Origin: Myxococcales bacterium | GTDB taxonomy: Bacteria; Myxococcota_A; UBA796; GCA-2862545 | Direction of reading: 5' to 3' | DNA: 64,000 bases | Assembly (NCBI GenBank): GCA_019634415.1 | Contig: JAHQVJ010000100.1 | Coordinates: forward strand, 62,001 to 126,000 | Program-made: the position numbers and the translations under genes | Shown here: positions 34,768-45,184 of the stretch, piece after piece | Layout: every line of letters starts with the position of its first letter | How positions within the stretch are numbered: the first letter of the stretch is position 1 | Notes under the pieces: generated by a model | Databases searched by the model: none | What the model was told of the DNA's origin: nothing | The model's input: only the letters and a program-made list of their open reading frames with translations

Positions 34768-35814
34768 ATGCGCAGAGCACCATGGATCCTGCTGGTCATG
34801 GCATGCATCCTTTCGATCGGGTGCGGGGAGATCTGGAGGGACGTGCAGGCGCGATCCTTCTCGGAGCTCACCGTGGAGCTTCAGGACTGGATCGATCTGA
34901 ACGACCCGCACCGCGAGGAGGTGCAGTCCATGATCGAGAACGGTTGGATCGCCGCGCACGAAGGCAGGGTGGGGTTCTTGAGGGCCATCGCCTTCGAGGT
35001 GGCCTTCGAGGACTGTGCCGAGGACGGGATGTTCGACGACGCGGAGATCAAGCTGCTCCGTGGCAAGTCCGCCGGCTTCTCGGGGAGCACGATCCCCGAC
35101 GATCGGCGGGCCCGCCTCATGGAGCGAAAGGCTGCGATGGACGCGGAGGTCCGGGCCAAGCGCTTCGCGCCCATCCAGCGTCGCGGCCGTCGGGGTGGCG
35201 GAGACCTGGCGAACTGGAAGCTCCCCGACGACGTGCAGGATGCCATCGAGTCCGCGGGGTGGGAGGTGGAGCGCTGCCGCGACGACGAGATCGACGGGAT
35301 CCTGTTCGTGTTCTGCAACGCTCGGAAGGGGCCGCTGCACGCCGAGGTGCAGGTGGATCGCTACCCGCGCATCGAGGACGCGCGCGCCATCGCCGAGGCG
35401 CCCCGCGCCACGGCCACGGTGCGGCAAGACGGCGACACCGTGATGACGGTGACGGTCCTCGACGGGCAAGCCGCGATCACCCTGCGCGACGCCATCGTGC
35501 CCAAGGGCGACACGCTCAACAAGTTGCGGGCAGGTCCGGTTCAGGCGGCGCTTCGCGGCGGCGGCTGGGACGTGGAGGGCTGCGATCCCATCAAGGACGG
35601 CAGCCTCATGCAGGTGTCCTGTGCCGCGAAGCAGCGGGGGCGTCAGGCGCTGGTGGACGTGGTGCTCGAGATGAGCGTCGCGGGCGACGCCGAAGGCGAG
35701 GAGCGGATCCTGCGCGAGGGTCAGGCCACGGTGGTGCAGGCCAGCAGCAGCTTGACGGCCTCGGTGACGGACACGGCCCCAGCCAACGAGCTGGTGGAGG
35801 CCATCCTCAAGTAG
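34768..35814 (+). CDS. Lipoprotein of unknown function
   Basis: MRRAPWILLVMACILSIGCGEIW lipobox; two similar blocks starting LPDDVQDAIESAGWEVERCRDD and KLRAGPVQAALRGGGWDVEGCDPI. Confidence 0.6.
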   Translation: MRRAPWILLVMACILSIGCGEIWRDVQARSFSELTVELQDWIDLNDPHREEVQSMIENGWIAAHEGRVGFLRAIAFEVAFEDCAEDGMFDDAEIKLLRGKSAGFSGSTIPDDRRARLMERKAAMDAEVRAKRFAPIQRRGRRGGGDLANWKLPDDVQDAIESAGWEVERCRDDEIDGILFVFCNARKGPLHAEVQVDRYPRIEDARAIAEAPRATATVRQDGDTVMTVTVLDGQAAITLRDAIVPKGDTLNKLRAGPVQAALRGGGWDVEGCDPIKDGSLMQVSCAAKQRGRQALVDVVLEMSVAGDAEGEERILREGQATVVQASSSLTASVTDTAPANELVEAILK

Positions 35815-36169
35815 TCACGCGCTTCAGCGCCCGAACGAGGGTCGCGGGGTTGAAGGGCTTGATGATCCAGGCAGTGGCACCCACGGCCTTGCCCTTCGCC
35901 TTCAGCACGGGGCTTGCCTCCGTGGTGAGCACGAAGATGGGTGTGCGTGCGTGCCCCGACTGTGTCCTGAGCGCCTTGATCAGCTCGAAGCCGTTCATGT
36001 CGGGCATGTTGATGTCGGTGATCACGGCGTCGATCTGAGAGTGGCTCACCACCCGCAGGGCTGCCCGACCGTTGGGGGCCAGGTGGACCGTGAAGTGCGC
36101 GGCCGTCAGCGCGAGCTCGAGCTGGGTCCGCATGGTCACCGAGTCGTCGACGACGAGGATGGACGCCAC
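35807..36169 (-). CDS. CheY-like response regulator
   Basis: MASILVVDDSVTMRTQLELAL...DAVITDINMPDMNGFELIKAL...PIFVLTTEASPVLKAKGKAVGATAWIIKPF. Confidence 0.9.
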   Translation of the reverse strand: MASILVVDDSVTMRTQLELALTAAHFTVHLAPNGRAALRVVSHSQIDAVITDINMPDMNGFELIKALRTQSGHARTPIFVLTTEASPVLKAKGKAVGATAWIIKPFNPATLVRALKRVTT

Positions 36170-36177
36170 GGGCGCTC

Positions 36178-37035
36178 CTAGAAGAAGTCCACCTCGCCGG
36201 CCTGCCCGTCGCCGTCGGCGTCGGGCACTCCGTAGGTGGGTGGGTCTGTGAGCTGGATCGATCGACGGGTGTGATCGGCGATGGCATCCCGTCCGGCGAG
36301 CAGCGCACGTGCCCGATCCAGCATCTGCTGGCTGCGATCCTCGAACTGGAGCCGCTGCAGGGCCTCGTGGGCGCTGTTCGTCAGGGCGTTGGCCTCTTCC
36401 CGGGCGGTGTTCACCGACTCCGTGGCGTGCTCCTGGGTACGGGCCAGCGCCTCCTCGACATTGCCCAGGGCGCGCAACGCCCGGTCGCCCTCCGAGCGAC
36501 TGAGGTCCGCCAGTGTCGAGGACTGCCCGTGGATCTCGCCGAGCAGCCGCATGAGCCGGTCGGCGAGCTCGAGGATCTGATCGGTGACCTTGCTGGTCCG
36601 AGCGCTGTGGCGCTGCATCTCGTCGGCCACCGTTCCGATGGCACCCGCGGTGGCGCCCAGGCGGCTGGCCTCCACCGCTACGTTGAGCGCCAGCAGCTTC
36701 GAGGCGAAGTTGAGCTTGTCCATGAACTGGCCGACGCTGCGGAGCGACCCCACGACCTCCTCGATCTCGCTGACGCGGGACTGCTGCGCGGTGGACACCT
36801 CGTCTACGCCGCTCGCGAGGGTGCGGATGGCCGTGGCCTGTTGATCGAGCTGTCCCGCCAAGGAGCTGGAGGTAGCGTCGGTGAGCTCCTGCTCGAGCTG
36901 GGTCAGCGCGTGGACCTGCGCGTTGCTCTGGTGGAAGACGGTGCGTAGGGACTCCGTGGCCGCCGTCACCTCGCCCCGCGACAGGACCATGACCGCCGCC
37001 AGCAGCTCGTCCAGCTCTTCGAGTGCGCCGGGCAT
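36178..37035 (-). CDS. Soluble methyl-accepting-chemotaxis-like signalling protein
   Basis: FASKLLALNVAVEASRLGATAGAIGTVADEMQRHSARTSKVTDQI resembles the MCP hairpin tip; no TM helix. Confidence 0.75.
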   Translation of the reverse strand: MPGALEELDELLAAVMVLSRGEVTAATESLRTVFHQSNAQVHALTQLEQELTDATSSSLAGQLDQQATAIRTLASGVDEVSTAQQSRVSEIEEVVGSLRSVGQFMDKLNFASKLLALNVAVEASRLGATAGAIGTVADEMQRHSARTSKVTDQILELADRLMRLLGEIHGQSSTLADLSRSEGDRALRALGNVEEALARTQEHATESVNTAREEANALTNSAHEALQRLQFEDRSQQMLDRARALLAGRDAIADHTRRSIQLTDPPTYGVPDADGDGQAGEVDFF

Positions 37036-38961
37036 CTAGAGTCGCTCGTGGTCGGTGACGGGCAGGCGCAGCTCCACCACGGTGCCACGCCCCAGCGTCG
37101 AGGAGATCTGGACCTGCCCCCGGATCTGCACCATGGACGTGCGGACCACGTCCATGCCGATCCCCCGGCCCGACACCGTGTTGATGGTGTCGCTCAGGCT
37201 GAAGCCCGGGAGGAACAGCAGGTCGAGGAGAGCTGCGTCGTCGGCGCAGTCGAGCTGGGCCGGTGTGCGGATCCCTTGCGCCAGCGCGACGCGTCGTATG
37301 TCGTTCACGTCCACGCCTCGACCGTCATCGATCACCTCCACGACGAGATCCCCTCCATGCCGCGCACACCGGATCTCGATGCGCCCTCGTGCGGGCTTGC
37401 CCGCTGCCACCCGAACCTCCTCGGGCTCGATTCCGTGGTCCACGCTGTTGCGAAGGGCGTGGAGCAGCGAGTCCCGTACGAGCTGGGCGGCCTTGGCGTC
37501 CACCAACAGCTCCTCCCCCACGAGCACGACGTCCTCCAGGCTCTTCCCGAGGTCGCGGGCCAGGTCCCGGCACATGTGCGCCATGCGGGTCAGCAGCCCA
37601 CGGAGGGGCACCTGCGTCAGCGCGCGCACGGCCTGTCCCACGGCCTCGAGCTCCGGGGTAGGATCCACCTGCGCCGCGAGTACTGCGTACCGTCGCCTGA
37701 GGTCCACGATCTTGGCCTGCGGCACCGACGTGCCGGCGGCGGGAGCTGCCGAACCTTGGCTCGAGGCGAGCATTCTGCGACCGACGACCTCGAACTCCGA
37801 CAGTGCGGTGCGGATCTGCTCCAGGCAGTCGTCCACGGCGTGGAGCTGCGCCGAGTCGGGTGGGCCAGGCGTGTCGCGGATCTGCTGGACGTGGTCCTCT
37901 GCATGGTGGGCCAGGTGCTGCATCGAGGCGATCTTGAAGATCCGGGCGTTCCCCTTGAGGGTGTGCAGCCCTCGCAGCAGGCAGTCCACCTGCGACGCGT
38001 CGTCGGGCGCCAGCGTCAGCGCCGTGCAGGACTGGTCGCAGCTGGCGAGGATCTGCCTGGACTCTTCGATGAAGGTCTCGAACAGCGCAGCGTCGAGCTG
38101 GGTGGCTTCGCTGGCCATGTCGAGGTTGCGCTGGTTGCGCGCCTCTGTCTCCACGACCTGTCGACCCAGTCGCTCCACCTCCGTCAGATCCTCCGCCACC
38201 ATCAGGATCCGTTTGAGGAGCTGCTCGTCGTCGTAGATGGGCTGGTACTCGACCCGCAGCTGCCGGATCTGGCTGTCGGGGTGGCGATAGGTGATGCGCC
38301 TGGGGAGGTTCTCCTCCATCAGGTCCCACTGCAGATCGTCTTCGCCGAAGACGGTGGTGAACACCGAGTCCACGACGGACCGCTGGTCGTCCGTGAGGTT
38401 CGCCAGCACGCTGTCGAACACGTCCGAGCGGGCGATCCCCGTCCCGAAGAGGTGCTGGCACCAAGCGCTCACGGGATCGGTGACGGTGCCCTTGCTGTTC
38501 ACCGAGAAGATCCCGCACCGCATGTGGTCCAGCAGCTCTTGGATCCGTGCCTTCTGGTGACGCAGCTTGCGGTTGCTGACGTCGATGACCTTCGAGAAGG
38601 ACTGCAGCATCAGCCGCTGCTCCATCACGGCCTCCACGCTCCGCCCGTGCACGAGGAGGTGGAGATCTCCGTCCAGTGCGTGCCGCCGCAGGGTGTACTG
38701 CACGGGGAAGGCGCGCTGCTGGGCCGGGGTCGCCTCCGCGTCGAAGACGTGCGGGCCGTCGCCGCTCGCGAGGGCTTCTCGGACCTGATCCTCGGATACG
38801 CCGAGCAGCGCGGGAAGGGTGGCTGCTGGACTCCAGCGCTGCAGGGCGGGGTTGCGGACGACGAGGCTGAGGTCGGCCGTGGAGGCCACGCCCAGTCCGT
38901 CTTCGACCCACTTCCAGCCCGCCGTCGCGGCGCGAAGTGGCTCAGGGACGACCAAGCTCAC
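37036..38961 (-). CDS. CheA-like hybrid: PAS-like N-terminus, HPt, HATPase, no CheW-like domain
   Basis: HPt HTLKGNARIFKIASMQHLAHHAED; LVRDSLLHALRNSVDHGIEPEEVRVAAGKPARGRIEI; VIDDGRGVDV; FSLSDTINTVSGRGIGMDVV; protein ends just after GRGTVVELRLPVT. Confidence 0.85.
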   Translation of the reverse strand: MSLVVPEPLRAATAGWKWVEDGLGVASTADLSLVVRNPALQRWSPAATLPALLGVSEDQVREALASGDGPHVFDAEATPAQQRAFPVQYTLRRHALDGDLHLLVHGRSVEAVMEQRLMLQSFSKVIDVSNRKLRHQKARIQELLDHMRCGIFSVNSKGTVTDPVSAWCQHLFGTGIARSDVFDSVLANLTDDQRSVVDSVFTTVFGEDDLQWDLMEENLPRRITYRHPDSQIRQLRVEYQPIYDDEQLLKRILMVAEDLTEVERLGRQVVETEARNQRNLDMASEATQLDAALFETFIEESRQILASCDQSCTALTLAPDDASQVDCLLRGLHTLKGNARIFKIASMQHLAHHAEDHVQQIRDTPGPPDSAQLHAVDDCLEQIRTALSEFEVVGRRMLASSQGSAAPAAGTSVPQAKIVDLRRRYAVLAAQVDPTPELEAVGQAVRALTQVPLRGLLTRMAHMCRDLARDLGKSLEDVVLVGEELLVDAKAAQLVRDSLLHALRNSVDHGIEPEEVRVAAGKPARGRIEIRCARHGGDLVVEVIDDGRGVDVNDIRRVALAQGIRTPAQLDCADDAALLDLLFLPGFSLSDTINTVSGRGIGMDVVRTSMVQIRGQVQISSTLGRGTVVELRLPVTDHERL

Positions 38962-39335
38962 GCGATGACCTCGTCGGCGTGGCTCGCCACCACCCCGAGG
39001 ATGGTGTCGATGTCGCCTTGCTCCACCCCCGACTCGCGCAGCGCGGCCTCGAGGTGGGCGGCCACCTCGGCGAAGGCCTCCGGCGTCACGTTCAGCGACT
39101 TGTGCGCTGCGGCCAGCCCTCGCCCCGTGTAGGCCTTGGGGCCCCCCAGCACGCCGCAGAGGAACTGCGTCTGGTGATCGATCAGTCGCGCCATGTCGAC
39201 GGTGGCGAAGTAGTGCGCCAAGCTGTCGGACTGCTTGATCTTCGCGTAGAAGAGGTGGACGACCCCGGAGATCCCCGCGAAGCCACCGTACTTGTCGTAG
39301 AGAGATGTTCCCACACCAGCTCCTGTGTTCCTCAC
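38958..39335 (-). CDS. Group 1 truncated hemoglobin
   Basis: YDKYGGFAGISGVVHLFYAKI...FLCGVLGGPKAYTGRGLAAAHKSLNVTPEAF, with proximal-His motif AAHKSL. Confidence 0.9.
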   Translation of the reverse strand: MRNTGAGVGTSLYDKYGGFAGISGVVHLFYAKIKQSDSLAHYFATVDMARLIDHQTQFLCGVLGGPKAYTGRGLAAAHKSLNVTPEAFAEVAAHLEAALRESGVEQGDIDTILGVVASHADEVIA

Positions 39336-39359: not shown

Positions 39360-40505
39360 TCAGGGTCCGTTCCCCTCGATTTGCACTTCGCCCACCACAG
39401 TGACGCGCTCGGCCAGCATCTCGACCTCGCTCGTGGGCAGCGCGGGGTTGTCGATCACCACGAAGTCCCCGGCCACGTCTTGGAGGCCTCCGAGGGCCAG
39501 TCGCTGCAGCGCGTCGTTGCGACACACGGTGAAGCTGCCCTCGACGGTGGTCACCCGATCGAGGGCGCTGATGGAGCGCAGCGCCGGGTTGTCGCAGATC
39601 TCGAGGTCGCCCGACACGATCTGGAGCGGCCCCGCCAGCAGCTCCGTGGCGCCTACCTCCACCAGGCGCACGGAGCCCTCCGCCCGGGCCAGGCGAGACA
39701 GCCCCACCCGCGACAGGCTCGGCAGCGTGCGCAGCGACAGCGACCCCACCGACGTCACCTCGTCGAGCGCCAGCGTGCCCGTCAGCGGGAGCTGCTCCAG
39801 GATCAGCGCTTGCTGAACCTCGGACAGATCGGGCAGCTGCAGTCGGCCGAGCCCGCTGTCTCGCACCTCGAGCCAGCCCACGGACTGCAGGGTGGGCGCC
39901 TGCAGGGTCTGCAGGGTGGGGTTGCCCACGACCTCGAGCCCCTCGGTCACCACGGCGAGGTTCGGCAGCTCCACCGTGCCACCCGCAGTCACCTCCACCG
40001 ATCCCTCGACCCGACACAGACAGTCGATGCTGCCCGACCAGGCGATCTGGAGATCGCCCTGCACGGTGGAGCCCTCGGTGCACAGCCGCTCGGCGTCGGC
40101 TCCGGTGGAGATCTGCAGAGGGCCGGCCACGGTTCCGGGTGCGCATGCCGGGGGGGTGTCGCCCCCCTGGCGGGGGAGGCCACAATCGAGCCACTGCAGC
40201 AGGCGGTCCCGCTGGGCGGCGGTGGGACCGCCGCCTGGCGGCATGCGGGCCTGCTCGCCCGTGGCTGAGGAGCGGATCAGCACCTCGAGGGCTGCCACCT
40301 CGTCGTAGGTGTCGAAGTTCATGCCGGCGGGGGCACCGCCGCGCAGCGTGTCTTGCAGGGCGGGGTGATGGCAGGAGGTGCACCAGCTGGTCATGTAGGC
40401 GTCGCCGAAGGTCTCCCAGGTCAGGTCGTCGGGGCAGGCCTCCGGCGCGCCCGAGCCCCCACAGCTCAGGGCCAGCAGCCCCCACCACCAGGTCGTGCGC
40501 CTCAC
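39360..40505 (-). CDS. CxxCH lipoprotein with receptor-L/LRR-like repeat region
   Basis: GTG start overlaps the upstream stop (GTGA); VRRTTWWWGLLALSCGG lipobox; WCTSCHHPAL heme motif; C-terminal repeats such as GDLEICDNPALRSISALDRVTTVEGSFTVCRNDALQRLALGGLQDVAGDFVVIDNPAL. Confidence 0.7.
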   Translation of the reverse strand: MRRTTWWWGLLALSCGGSGAPEACPDDLTWETFGDAYMTSWCTSCHHPALQDTLRGGAPAGMNFDTYDEVAALEVLIRSSATGEQARMPPGGGPTAAQRDRLLQWLDCGLPRQGGDTPPACAPGTVAGPLQISTGADAERLCTEGSTVQGDLQIAWSGSIDCLCRVEGSVEVTAGGTVELPNLAVVTEGLEVVGNPTLQTLQAPTLQSVGWLEVRDSGLGRLQLPDLSEVQQALILEQLPLTGTLALDEVTSVGSLSLRTLPSLSRVGLSRLARAEGSVRLVEVGATELLAGPLQIVSGDLEICDNPALRSISALDRVTTVEGSFTVCRNDALQRLALGGLQDVAGDFVVIDNPALPTSEVEMLAERVTVVGEVQIEGNGP

Positions 40506-41758
40506 GCCTGCAGGCCGCCCCAGGGGGTCACCCCGGGTAGCCACGGCTCCGGATCCACGTCCATTGCGCTCAAGATCCCGGCCACCACGTTGTCGTGGCG
40601 AGGCACCTGACCAGCACGATCGGCCTGTCCGGTGGCCAGGTCCACGGCGACGCCCTCCATGCGCTCGTCGGTGCCCCCCAGCAGGCGGTTGCGGGGGGTG
40701 GAGGCCCCCAGGAACAGGTAGCTGACGTAGGGCCAGTGGTCCTTGCCACCCATGGAGTTGCGCACCGGGGTGCGCGTCATCTCGGAGGTGACCACCACCA
40801 GGGTGTCGTCGAGCAGCCCGAGGTCGTCGAGCTCCCTCACCAGCGCGTGCACACCGCCGAACAGCTCCTCCTGCAGCGTGTTCTGCTTGGCCGTGGCTCC
40901 GTGGGTGTCGAAGCCGTCCAGCGACAGGAACACCGAGCGCGTCAGCCCGGCTGCCAGCACGGCGGCGGCGTTGCGGCTGCGCTGGAGGAAGGAGGGCACG
41001 TTGGTCAGATCGAGCTCTGCCTGCAGGGCCGTGTCGCGCATGGTCTTGGCGCGCTCCTCGGCGATCCAGTGGTCGGCCAGACGGGCATCGTTGTGCCCAC
41101 CCCGGTCGGACCAGTGCTTGGCCATGCGCTCGTTGCGGTGCTTCAGGTGGTCCAGCACCTCGCGCTCCTGCACTTCCGAGGGCAGCCAGCGCGGATCGCG
41201 CGGGCGCACCAGGGCCTCGAACTGCAGCGTGCCGCCGGTGCGCGCCGTGCCCGACTCCAGGGCACCCAGGTGCTGCCAGCGCGAGAACGCGAAGGAGGCC
41301 ACGGGCAGGTCGCCCCCTGCCTCGGCGCCGTAGATCACCGCCAGATCCGGTCGGTGCTCCAGGTCGGTGCCCGTGAGCACGCGGGTGCGGGCCAGCGGAT
41401 GCCCCACGGCACCGCAGAACACGCCGTTCACGAGGCAGCTGCGGGCGCCGTACTCGGCGAAGAAGGAGCCCACCGCAGGGCGTCGCACCTCGTTCACCAC
41501 CACCGGTAGCTCGCCGAAGCGCTGTAGCTCGTCGACGTCGGCGGGGTTGTTGCGGTTGGCGTCCACCATGGGGCCCACGATCTCGGTCACGTCGAGCTTG
41601 GGATCGAGGGAGTAGGTGGTGTCCCAGCCTCCCTCGGCGAACACCACCACGAGGTTGCGGGGCGCGTTGGACGCTCGGGCGTTGCGCAGCTGGCTCGCGG
41701 CGAGCAGCGCCGCACCGGCCCCCAGCAGGCCGCGTCGACTGTAGCTGTGCGATCCCAT
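40502..41758 (-). CDS. DUF1501-family (sulfatase-like) protein with Tat-like signal
   Basis: MGSHSYSRRGLLGAGAALLAASQLRNARA; LVVVFAEGGWDTTYSLDP...VVTSEMTRTPVRNSMGGKDHWPY. Confidence 0.8.
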   Translation of the reverse strand: MGSHSYSRRGLLGAGAALLAASQLRNARASNAPRNLVVVFAEGGWDTTYSLDPKLDVTEIVGPMVDANRNNPADVDELQRFGELPVVVNEVRRPAVGSFFAEYGARSCLVNGVFCGAVGHPLARTRVLTGTDLEHRPDLAVIYGAEAGGDLPVASFAFSRWQHLGALESGTARTGGTLQFEALVRPRDPRWLPSEVQEREVLDHLKHRNERMAKHWSDRGGHNDARLADHWIAEERAKTMRDTALQAELDLTNVPSFLQRSRNAAAVLAAGLTRSVFLSLDGFDTHGATAKQNTLQEELFGGVHALVRELDDLGLLDDTLVVVTSEMTRTPVRNSMGGKDHWPYVSYLFLGASTPRNRLLGGTDERMEGVAVDLATGQADRAGQVPRHDNVVAGILSAMDVDPEPWLPGVTPWGGLQA

Positions 41759-41811
41759 GGGCCCCTCGCGGAAGCCCGAGTGTATCTCGGGCACCACGGC
41801 AGCCGCGACGC

Positions 41812-42381
41812 CTACCGCTTCAGGCTGTAGGTGCCGGTGAACGCTGCCGCGATGTGACCGGCCTCGTCCAGCAGCCACGGCAGCTTGGGGGCGTGTCGCG
41901 GCGGCACGCGCACGTGAGCAACGCGCTCGTGGGTGCCGAACACCCAGTCCCAGAGGGGCGAGGTCACGCCGTGGTTGGTGGCTGGGTTGCCGAAGTGGTG
42001 GTGCAGGTGGTGCCGTCGTGCCCAGGCGCCGTAGCCGTTCAGCGGTGCCGCGACGTGGATCCGGCGATGGAGCAGCTCATAGCCGAGCCAGCCGCCCACG
42101 ATCCCGCCCACGTAGGCCAGCGCCGTGCCTCCGCCACCCAGAGCCCAGCCCGCGAGCGCGAGCGGCGTCAGCACCGCCGCAGCCAGCCGAAGCTTCGACG
42201 ACCACGGGGCGAACCAGCTGACCTCCTTGTGGTGGCGCGTGTGCTCCCGGGCTGCTGCCCGTCCCCACATACCGTGGTGGAACACGTAGCGATGGAGCCC
42301 GTACTCGAGCAGCGTCCAGGTGAGCAGGCCGAGGACCAGCGGGATCCATGGATGCAAGACGATCATGCGCCATGATGACAT
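41812..42381 (-). CDS. Sterol desaturase/fatty acid hydroxylase-family protein
   Basis: His clusters HRYVFHH, HTRHH, HRRIH, RRHHLHHHFG. Confidence 0.8.
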   Translation of the reverse strand: MSSWRMIVLHPWIPLVLGLLTWTLLEYGLHRYVFHHGMWGRAAAREHTRHHKEVSWFAPWSSKLRLAAAVLTPLALAGWALGGGGTALAYVGGIVGGWLGYELLHRRIHVAAPLNGYGAWARRHHLHHHFGNPATNHGVTSPLWDWVFGTHERVAHVRVPPRHAPKLPWLLDEAGHIAAAFTGTYSLKR

Positions 42382-42395
42382 GGGGAGGGCGACCG

Positions 42396-44126
42396 TCAGT
42401 AGTGCAGGAACTGCGGATCGCGCAGCAGCGCCCAGATCACCAGGCGCCACGCGTCCTCGGCGTTGCCCGAGCGCGCGATCTCGCCGTCGAACAGGGCCAG
42501 CAGCCCCTCCGTGTCGGCCTTGTCGGGAGGCGCGTGCAGGAAGTGCTCGAAGAGCCCCTCGATCTGTGCGAGCACCATGTCACCTCGCTCCTCCGTGCCC
42601 TGCACCTCCGTCAGGAAGAGCCGATCCGCCATGGGCCGATCCAGCTCCCGCTGCACTGCCGCCTGCGCGATCTCGGCGGCGATCCGACTCCAGGCCATGC
42701 TGCGGATCGGCGTGGAGGTGAGCACCGGATCGAGGTTGTAGGCCCCGTCCACGCCACCCAGCATCGACAGGTAGCCGTACTGCTCGGTGACCACGAGGTC
42801 TACGATGCCCAGGCAGTAGGGCTCGCAGGGCAGGGCCTGGGGGGAGGCCAGATACGCTTCGCCGGTGACCGCCCGCAGCGTGCGCGCCAGCTGCTCGGGG
42901 CGCACCAGCTGCAGCCCTGCTGCCCACTGCTCGTCGGTGCTCTGCCGGCGCTGCAGCACCTGCGACAGCACGATGTCGCGCACCAGCCCCTTGGCGTCGA
43001 GATCGCTCGCGCGGAAGGGGGCCTCGAAGGTCGCTACCACGTCGTCGGGCACCTCGTGCACCGAGGTCTGGGTGAAGTAGCTCACGAAGCGCCGCACGCT
43101 GCAGGTCACGAAGCGTGGATCGGCCGCGAAGGCGGCCCCCAGATCCTCCAGATCCTCCACCGGCTGCCCGTAGAAGCCCGGGGGCCGCAGCCCGAAGCTG
43201 CGCCACAGGTCCTCGTTCTCGGTGTGGTACGTGGTGATCGGGTAGCAGGCGTCGTTGCCGCGCACGAACCCGTCCTCGGGGGCGGCAGGGACCACGCCCG
43301 GTCCGCAGCCCGAGGCGAAGGCAGCCTGGATGGTGGTGCCCGGCAGGTCCCGCTTGAAGCCGAAGAAGGTGCTCGCGATGGGGTCGAGCGTCTGGTGGCA
43401 GCCCACGCAGGTGTCGATCTCGAGCAGGGCGTTGGCCACGGTGGAGGGATCGTCCCACAGCGGCAGATCCACCTGGGAGATGTCGAGCGGCCGGTCCGAC
43501 ACTGCGTCGCAGAGCAGCACCTTGGTGAGCAGGTTCGAGCGGCCGCGGTTGAAGTCCTGGGCCACCGAGCCGTGGCGGCGCCACAGCTGGGTGCTCGAGA
43601 GGATCCCCGCCTTGGGCCGCCCGTCCACCCACTCCGAGCGCTGCCACTCGCCCGCCGCCGGATCGAAGGGCACGCCGTAGGCGTCCGACAGGATGCGGTC
43701 CGTCATCATCCAGTCGGCGGTCACGATCTCGGTGTAGGGCGCACCGCTGCGCACCACCTCCTCCACCAGGCGCACGGGCGCGTCGGCGCGGGACTGGTTC
43801 ACGGCGGACATGGAGGTGCCCTCGAGCCTGCCCAGGGCGGGCATCCAGTTGGCACTCTGCCCGTCGTCGCGCACGGCCAGCTGCTCGGCGTGCATGTCGC
43901 GGAGGGTGGCGCCGAACTCCTCCGAGTCGAGCCACTCGTCCACCAGCGCCTCGAGTGCCCGCTCGCTGCGGGTGCCCTGTGCGCGCTCGGCAGGGGTGGG
44001 GGGGATCCCCCGTAGCGCCATCGACACCCGAACCGTGCGCTCGGCGTCGCTGAGGGTGGCGTCGCCGCGGCCCCCGCAGCCGGCCGCGAGCAACAGGAAG
44101 AGGCTGGCTGTGCGTGCGCGTCCCAT
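42396..44126 (-). CDS. PSCyt2/DUF1549-like cytochrome lipoprotein
   Basis: MGRARTASLFLLLAAGCGG lipobox; LVDEWLDSEEFGATLRDMHAEQL; heme motif CVGCHQTLDPIASTFFGF. Confidence 0.65.
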   Translation of the reverse strand: MGRARTASLFLLLAAGCGGRGDATLSDAERTVRVSMALRGIPPTPAERAQGTRSERALEALVDEWLDSEEFGATLRDMHAEQLAVRDDGQSANWMPALGRLEGTSMSAVNQSRADAPVRLVEEVVRSGAPYTEIVTADWMMTDRILSDAYGVPFDPAAGEWQRSEWVDGRPKAGILSSTQLWRRHGSVAQDFNRGRSNLLTKVLLCDAVSDRPLDISQVDLPLWDDPSTVANALLEIDTCVGCHQTLDPIASTFFGFKRDLPGTTIQAAFASGCGPGVVPAAPEDGFVRGNDACYPITTYHTENEDLWRSFGLRPPGFYGQPVEDLEDLGAAFAADPRFVTCSVRRFVSYFTQTSVHEVPDDVVATFEAPFRASDLDAKGLVRDIVLSQVLQRRQSTDEQWAAGLQLVRPEQLARTLRAVTGEAYLASPQALPCEPYCLGIVDLVVTEQYGYLSMLGGVDGAYNLDPVLTSTPIRSMAWSRIAAEIAQAAVQRELDRPMADRLFLTEVQGTEERGDMVLAQIEGLFEHFLHAPPDKADTEGLLALFDGEIARSGNAEDAWRLVIWALLRDPQFLHY

Positions 44127-44170
44127 GGGGGCGTAGGGTAGCATCGGCCGCGCCGAGTCGCTGCCCTGCG

Positions 44171-44605
44171 TCAGCGCACCACCAACACCGGGATCGGGGC
44201 GTGCCGCACCACGCGCTCCGCCACCGAGCCGATCAGGATCTGCGACAGGCCCGTGCGCCCGTGGGTGCTCACCACCACCATCTCGTAGCCGTTGTCGGCC
44301 TCGGTACAGATGGCGTCCGCCGGTGCTCCGCGCCGCAGCAGGATGCGCCCCCGGCAGTCCTCGGGCACGTGGGCCTCCATCAGCTGCTGCAGATCCCGCA
44401 AGGCGCTGACCTCCTCGCCCTGCCGGATCTTGGCGAGCACCTCGGCGGGCGCATGGGCCTGGGCGTGGGCCGGCAGGCTGCCGAGCATCACGTGCAGCAG
44501 ATCCACCTTCGTGGCAGAGCCTTGGGCTACGCGCACCGCATACTCCAGTGTGCGCTGGGTCAGCTGCGAGAAGTCCACGGCCACGAGCAGGGGTTGGGCG
44601 TCCAT
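44171..44605 (-). CDS. Universal stress protein
   Basis: MDAQPLLVAVDFSQLTQRTLEYAVRVA...MVVVSTHGRTGLSQILIGSVAERVVRHAPIPVLVVR. Confidence 0.9.
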   Translation of the reverse strand: MDAQPLLVAVDFSQLTQRTLEYAVRVAQGSATKVDLLHVMLGSLPAHAQAHAPAEVLAKIRQGEEVSALRDLQQLMEAHVPEDCRGRILLRRGAPADAICTEADNGYEMVVVSTHGRTGLSQILIGSVAERVVRHAPIPVLVVR

Positions 44606-44641
44606 GTTGGGAGTGTACCCTCGGTGAGGGTATGTACGGGC

Positions 44642-45184
44642 ATGACCGACGCAGCACCCAGCACGCCGTCCTCCTGGACCTTCCTTCGCGGCCTGGCCCG
44701 CGATTGGGGCATCGCCGCGATCGTGGTGGTGGTGGTGTTCATGGGCTACAACCTGTTGTTTCCTCCGAGGCCACCGGGGCTCGGGCCCGCGCCCGACTTC
44801 ACCCTGAACAACCTCGAGGGCCAGCAGGTGACGCTGTCGAGCGTGGATTCCGATCTGGTGGTGCTCAACTTCTGGTTCACCACGTGTCCGCCCTGTCGCG
44901 CCGAGATCCCGGAGCTCACGGCCTTCGCCAGGGACAACCCCGACATCGAGCTGTACGGCGTGAGCACCGACGTGAACATGCCGCCGGGGCGGCTGCAGCG
45001 CGAGTCCCACAAGCTGGGCATCCGCTACCCGGTGCTCCACGACGTGCGCGCCGACGTGGCCCGTCGCTACGGCGTCTCGGTGTTCCCCACCACCCTGGTC
45101 ATCCGCGACATGCAGATCGTGCAAGCCCGGGTGGGCATCGTGAACCGCGAGCAGCTCGACGAGATGGTGGCCGCTTCCCGGTAA
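44642..45184 (+). CDS. TlpA-like membrane-anchored thiol-disulfide oxidoreductase
   Basis: N-terminal TM helix; PDFTLNNLEGQQVTLSS...LNFWFTTCPPCRAEIPEL. Confidence 0.9.
   Translation: MTDAAPSTPSSWTFLRGLARDWGIAAIVVVVVFMGYNLLFPPRPPGLGPAPDFTLNNLEGQQVTLSSVDSDLVVLNFWFTTCPPCRAEIPELTAFARDNPDIELYGVSTDVNMPPGRLQRESHKLGIRYPVLHDVRADVARRYGVSVFPTTLVIRDMQIVQARVGIVNREQLDEMVAASR

Follow-up and report, generated by a model that had tools for sequence, protein, structure and literature searches.

A globin, a kinase and chemotaxis-like proteins in one operon

The operon analysed here lies on the minus strand of a 64-kb window (the whole stretch of 64,000 nucleotides (nt) analysed, from contig JAHQVJ010000100.1 of a Myxococcales bacterium) and encodes a truncated hemoglobin (trHb), a CheA-like kinase, a protein resembling methyl-accepting chemotaxis proteins (MCPs) and a CheY. 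From comparative sequence analysis we think it fairly probable that the globin belongs to a distinct group-1 trHb subfamily, marked by a His at E10 and a KYGGF N-terminus, whose members would be gas-sensor subunits acting in trans on one family of PAS–coiled-coil receivers. In Myxococcota, Bdellovibrionota, Acidobacteriota and Pseudomonadota these receivers would be joined to at least five classes of output. The window operon would be the chemotaxis-derived version of this system, with a kinase lacking P5 and an MCP/CheZ-like regulator of CheY, and the whole an undescribed heme counterpart of RsbQ–RsbP. The operon itself quite likely encodes a gas sensor of two subunits that feeds a phosphorelay derived from chemotaxis, with the trHb acting on the first PAS domain (PAS1) of the kinase.

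The features are the following:

38958–39314, minus strand: group-1 trHb, candidate gas-sensor subunit (Bac_globin of Pfam; AGGAG before GTG 39314)
37036–38961, minus strand: CheA-like cytoplasmic kinase without P5, PAS1-coil-PAS2-HPt-HATPase (Pfam, motifs, alignment of relatives)
38497–38961, minus strand: kinase residues 1–155, PAS1 and coiled-coil helix, candidate globin docking site (profile, AlphaFold2, PDB matches)
36178–37035, minus strand: soluble MCP-like helical hairpin with tip LLALNVAVEASR, CheZ-like motif FEDRSQQ, disordered linker and EVDFF tail (sub-threshold MCPsignal, NCBIfam CheZ)
35807–36169, minus strand: stand-alone CheY-like receiver (Pfam Response_reg)

The globin open reading frame (ORF) extends to 39335 and its stop shares 4 nt, GTGA, with the start of the kinase; the kinase stop adjoins the MCP-like ATG without gap (37036/37035), and 8 nt separate the MCP-like stop from the GTG start of CheY. 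The initial annotation thus had the four ORFs, their coordinates, the abutment and the 8-nt gap right, but the overlap that it gave as ATGA reads GTGA. The true start of the globin is probably GTG 39314 rather than 39335, for a product of 118 amino acids, because AGGAG stands 5 nt upstream and because this start fits the N-termini of homologous globins, which begin 2–4 residues ahead of a conserved L-[FY]-[ED]-K-Y-G-G-F.

Conservation of the globin–PAS1 pair

Among the closest relatives, from the same family of genomes, none has this kinase, so that conservation was sought more widely, by scanning a globin alignment against 85,462 species genomes and analysing the 80 best loci. A gene whose N-terminal domain is of the PAS1 type, as recognized by a profile built on the N-termini of the partners, adjoins the globin gene in 74 of these 80 loci, and two further loci (L098 and L099) have a PAS1 gene in the same cluster, not adjacent. 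The spacing is tight: at most 20 nt in 70 of the 74 scored pairs, with an overlap in 50, and exactly 4 nt of overlap, the commonest spacing, in 30. The outputs change while the pair is kept. By Pfam, 55 partners divide into class III cyclases (33), HisKA kinases (16, a class in which 12 members carry a response-regulator domain), SpoIIE (4) and GGDEF (2) proteins; the two phylum relatives of the window globin (46–48% identity) lie directly upstream of class III cyclases. Besides, the globin with a P5-less kinase recurs in other phyla (Bdellovibrionota and a bin labelled Sericytochromatia), and the initial annotation, for which an unconserved globin–CheA pairing would have spoken against its proposal, is in this respect sustained. 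A globin of this type beside many signalling enzymes across bacteria looks like a general plug-in gas sensor.

Two globin–cyclase pairs (L081:4392-5471, plus strand, and L110:7494-8594) face a convergent gene for a second PAS1 protein, a HisKA kinase without a globin of its own; one globin may serve two outputs there. Separately, at alphaproteobacterial globin–cyclase loci (L131, L135, L143, L148, L154, L156, L164, L165, L166 and L171) a candidate pair of PAS kinase and response regulator is found about 0.5–5 kb upstream, on the opposite strand.

The PAS1 domain was modelled by AlphaFold2 on 50 homologues as a confident PAS fold (pLDDT 90) followed by a long C-terminal helix, residues 110–154, and the best PDB matches of the model are sensor domains of the LOV and other PAS types, attached to coiled coils. 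A first profile, trained on the cyclase, kinase and phosphatase partners of the globin, gave 72–90 bits for the kinases of L098, L099 and L105 and just 31 bits for the window kinase, like some unrelated PAS proteins. A second profile was built from these three kinases with the window sequence left out; it reached 88 bits on the window kinase (E=4e-25, 12,342 ORFs), followed by globin-linked partners of cyclase and phosphatase type, many at 60–85 bits, whereas ORFs outside the globin clusters scored at most 24 bits. This gap rules out generic PAS similarity as the source of the link, and the two profiles align with each other at 99.7% probability. PAS1 is the partner that the globin keeps, and the globin-less kinases described below lack it.

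The evidence does not support a reading of PAS1 as a true HNOBA or heme-binding PAS domain, which we also considered: its matches in the PDB are PAS/LOV domains of a general kind, Pfam HNOBA has no match in the window kinase, and the similarity to HNOBA seen in 30 of the 55 globin partners is weak, partial and below cut-off.

The globin: sensor or metabolic protein

The globin matches Pfam Bac_globin at 79.5 bits (cut-off 21; E=2.9e-22), and the predicted heme pocket, numbered on the 125-residue ORF, has Tyr30 at B10, Phe43 at CD1, Leu51 at E7, Gln55 at E11 and His78 at F8; the domain match with its F8 His, B10 Tyr and CD1 Phe makes it a group-1 trHb. Of these residues, Tyr B10, Phe CD1, Gln E11 and His F8 do not vary across 82 linked globins, and they are those of the O2-binding trHbN. 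Two residues, His54 (E10) and Asp108 in the same numbering, mark the subfamily: the former is present in 82 of 82 linked globins versus none of 7 unlinked trHbs, the latter in 81 of 82 versus 2 of 7. KYGGF is also near-invariant in the linked globins but was built into the search pattern, so that it brings no independent evidence. In globin trees, which have 125 columns and leave many forks open, the seven unlinked globins lie to one side of a branch with support 94/86 and the type of partner is strongly clustered.

Such a globin could also serve metabolism, as an NO dioxygenase, an O2 buffer or a heme store; it would then protect or supply its signalling partners without passing any signal to them, and be co-expressed with them out of a shared need. 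Group-1 trHbs are indeed known as NO dioxygenases, and the globin retains the Tyr B10 and Gln E11 that are typical of high-affinity O2 binding. A trHb gene of Legionella is paired with a ferredoxin reductase under NsrR (PMC3820574). On the other hand the window operon has no reductase gene, and the partners found across genomes are translationally coupled signalling enzymes of five output classes with one common N-terminal PAS; we consider this explanation improbable. A sensory role for the globin was the core of the initial annotation, which saw it as the input of a non-canonical, array-free kinase, and this now gains strong support, since the globin is tied genetically to one PAS1, both here and in partners of four further output classes. 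What the present analysis brings beyond it is the dedicated PAS1 receiver, the wide globin–PAS family and the exchange of inputs (CHASE, 7TMR-DISM, HAMP-like) in globin-less kinases.

A CheA-like kinase without P5

Pfam finds in the kinase a histidine phosphotransfer domain (Hpt, 45.8 bits) and HATPase_c (58.7 bits), with the phosphorylatable His333 in HTLKGNAR and the ATPase motifs at N505, DDGRG 545 and GRGIGMD 598. The protein ends 5 residues past the HATPase match, and Pfam finds no CheW/P5 domain; the earlier description of a PAS-like, HPt and HATPase kinase devoid of P5 is thereby borne out. CheA models of NCBIfam are its best similarity, under their cut-off. It thus has an HPt with its His and a CheA-type HATPase but not the CheW-like P5, a domain found in 100% of CheAs in a survey of 13,673 sequences (PMC10542144). 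Since all the surveyed CheAs have it, we call the kinase CheA-like and not a CheA. The HPt phosphodonor, the CheA-type HATPase and the stand-alone CheY bring it near the chemotaxis kinases, from which the lack of CheW/P5 and the presence of its own PAS inputs set it apart. A divergent CheA hiding a P5 was considered and is ruled out, as no residues are left after the ATPase and the full-length relatives checked have no P5 either. A search of viral contigs gave no match.

The CheY matches Pfam Response_reg (93 bits, E=1.6e-26) and has D8/D9, the phospho-acceptor D52, T82/T83 and K104. No cheW adjoins the operon, as was first noted, and the CheW domains of the genome all sit on other contigs. 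One of them, on contig C65, is in frame with a canonical CheA. The initial annotation had reserved the case of a CheW domain or separate chemotaxis partners explaining the kinase: such a CheA does exist in the genome, but it does not account for this kinase.

Relatives of the kinase with and without globin

The kinase of L099, from a bin labelled Candidatus Sericytochromatia, aligns with that of the window at 388 bits and is encoded in a single run with globin, MCP-like, CheY and CheX genes. In L105 (Silvanigrellales) the kinase is followed by the globin, and in L098 (Bdellovibrionales) the globin is divergent to a cluster of a weak CheX-like gene, a second kinase, CheY and the PAS1 kinase. 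In L097 (Myxococcales) only a C-terminal kinase fragment precedes the globin; there, at L097:5425-6351, the end of a CheA-type ATPase, itself preceded by a sigma-54-type regulator, continues in frame into the globin; this may be what remains of a kinase, or else a join made in assembly.

P5-less kinases without globin align with the window kinase from about residue 103 onward only, and the full-length relatives found by a search of the phylum from about residue 113. They have no PAS1, and other inputs stand in its place: CHASE in L034, 7TMR-DISM in L090. The P5-less kinases of Burkholderia and Ideonella have, by their sequence, membrane and HAMP-like N-terminal regions. PAS2, HPt and HATPase are common to all these relatives, and P5 is missing from each one that was checked; as read from the alignments, the kinase core is an interchangeable chassis for inputs. 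A short MCP-like gene and CheY accompany the P5-less kinase in L090 and in Burkholderia, where CheX-type phosphatase genes are present as well, and the genome G159 keeps the order kinase–MCP–CheY without globin.

Two of these loci have particular surroundings. On the Ideonella dechloratans plasmid NZ_CP088082.1 (L046, 553825-565288) a module of P5-less kinase and MCP-like protein has a diversity-generating retroelement (Avd, reverse transcriptase) some 2 kb away. At L038 (G063:C112:1-19000) a CheX-like gene and a receiver gene stand between two P5-less kinase ORFs, which are divergent and about 1985 amino acids long.

The MCP-like protein: receptor, adaptation factor or phosphatase

Pfam MCPsignal scores 28.4 bits on the MCP-like protein, under its cut-off of 34.6, while comparisons with PDB and by fold retrieve MCP structures, the best being soluble chemoreceptors of Thermotoga maritima. 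The tip of the hairpin retains the F, L, N, V, E and R that are found in the tips of receptors such as Tsr. Pfam gives no further domain above cut-off, and no hydrophobic segment was found, that would make a sensor domain or a membrane anchor of the protein, in line with the initial annotation of a protein without transmembrane helix; the same holds for all four proteins, whose best 19-residue mean hydrophobicity (1.17) is under the level typical of such helices.

The C-terminal part recalls CheZ. The NCBIfam CheZ model touches residues 195–242 with E=0.005, 16.3 bits versus a cut-off of 350, and the motif FEDRSQQ (Asp233/Gln237), helical in the model, can be set beside FQDLTGQ of E. coli CheZ. 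The model, built on only two sequences, so that its hairpin geometry is not relied on, is all-helical with the last 23 residues disordered, and the protein ends in EVDFF. A helical hairpin, F[QE]DxxxQ, a disordered linker and a short acidic-hydrophobic tail are thus features in common with CheZ; on the other hand the hairpin resembles an MCP tip, Pfam CheZ has no match, and homology to CheZ was not significant by pairwise alignment. DxxxQ is present in both clusters without CheX (window and L090). In the clusters of L099 and Burkholderia, which do have CheX, it is replaced by DxxxR in the former and missing from the proteins of the latter. This complementarity suggests, on a small sample, that in the window the MCP-like protein itself takes on the phosphatase role. 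We therefore regard a CheY phosphatase or adaptor as likelier than a receptor, with less assurance than for the role of the globin.

The protein might still be a real soluble chemoreceptor, reading a cytoplasmic signal and coupled via CheW to the canonical CheA, so that globin and kinase would form a separate input to the same CheY. The conserved tip positions, the Thermotoga matches and the occurrence in the host genome of CheW and of a CheA with a CheW domain would fit such a receptor; its lack of a recognizable sensor domain, the MCPsignal score below cut-off and the presence of short MCP-like proteins beside P5-less kinases in other lineages make it unlikely. An adaptation factor acting on the kinase, not on CheY, seems to us conceivable yet doubtful. 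The operon has neither cheR nor cheB, and DxxxQ is confined to the CheX-less clusters (again a small sample); at the same time MCP-like hairpins are kept beside P5-less kinases in L099 and Burkholderia despite CheX, which points to some role besides dephosphorylation. The scaffold or adaptation factor of the initial annotation is accordingly possible, but the C-terminus better fits a CheZ-like phosphatase or adaptor.

Proposed mechanism and known systems

As to the ligand, the globin–PAS1 contact, the direction of control, the phosphatase and the target of CheY, we infer the following scheme. The trHb would bind O2 and/or NO, and its ligand or redox state would alter its contact with PAS1 of the kinase. 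The coiled coil of PAS1 would relay this change and set the autophosphorylation of His333 in the HPt by the ATPase domain, from which the phosphate would move to D52 of CheY. The MCP-like protein would then most likely be a cytoplasmic CheY-binding hairpin that ends the signal, like a CheZ-type phosphatase, or that tunes the kinase. As the kinase has its own input and neither P5 nor CheW, such a relay would not need receptor arrays.

The closest precedent by anatomy is RsbQ–RsbP, for which direct contact of the PAS domain with RsbQ has been demonstrated (Nadezhdin et al. 2011, PMC3183031). In both cases the gene of a small separate protein immediately precedes that of its partner, and the partner begins with a PAS domain, which leads through a coiled coil into interchangeable outputs; because this anatomy is the same, we suggest by analogy that the globin binds PAS1 and that its ligand state sets the kinase activity. 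The small protein of RsbQ–RsbP is however an alpha/beta hydrolase and not a hemoglobin, its outputs—PP2C-type phosphatase, histidine kinase and diguanylate cyclase (PMC3183031)—do not include class III cyclases or P5-less HPt kinases, and the likeness described here is one of architecture.

Two heme-based systems come near as well. H-NOX/HNOBA (soluble guanylate cyclase) and H-NOX/HnoK likewise pair an NO/O2-binding heme protein with a PAS-like domain and coiled coil before a cyclase or kinase; here the heme protein is a trHb, and the HNOBA matches listed cover only the end of the profile, below cut-off. Globin-coupled sensors (HemAT, GReg, AfGcHK) also place a signalling output under the control of a globin, as we propose here, but theirs shares one chain with the output and has the 3/3 sensor-globin fold, whereas the trHb is a 2/2 globin on a separate ORF. 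Both are functional parallels from different families. No description of a trHb–PAS module was found in the open-access full-text literature (subscription papers being outside its scope), so that the novelty is provisional.

Several points weigh against the proposed sensor, besides the metabolic role that the globin could have. The scan patterns were drawn from the KYGGF and YFxxVDM motifs, which by design confines the sample to one subfamily of globins. P5-less kinase and globin occur together in only four clusters and one fragment, each of them in the genome of an uncultured organism, and a binning error may lie behind the Sericytochromatia label of the L099 bin. Finally, the target of CheY is probably not the flagellar switch, since no FliM was found in the host genome, an absence that the assembly (9.8 Mb in 254 contigs, 82% complete) makes non-conclusive.

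Bacterial truncated hemoglobins mostly have no assigned function and are usually guessed to detoxify NO; a PAS-coupled subfamily makes a sensing role directly testable and would add a class of separate-chain globins to the heme sensors. In the window operon, chemotaxis parts (HPt, CheA-type ATPase, MCP hairpin and CheY) would be seen to form a relay that works without arrays and is governed by a soluble gas sensor.

Upstream genes

Immediately upstream, also on the minus strand (39360–44657), the window encodes a protein that looks secreted and has a single CxxCH motif, as well as a DUF1501 protein, a fatty acid hydroxylase and a PSCyt/PSD protein (DUF1549/1585/1588/1595). The globin start lies about 25–45 nt past the gene of the CxxCH protein, and a shared transcript is possible.

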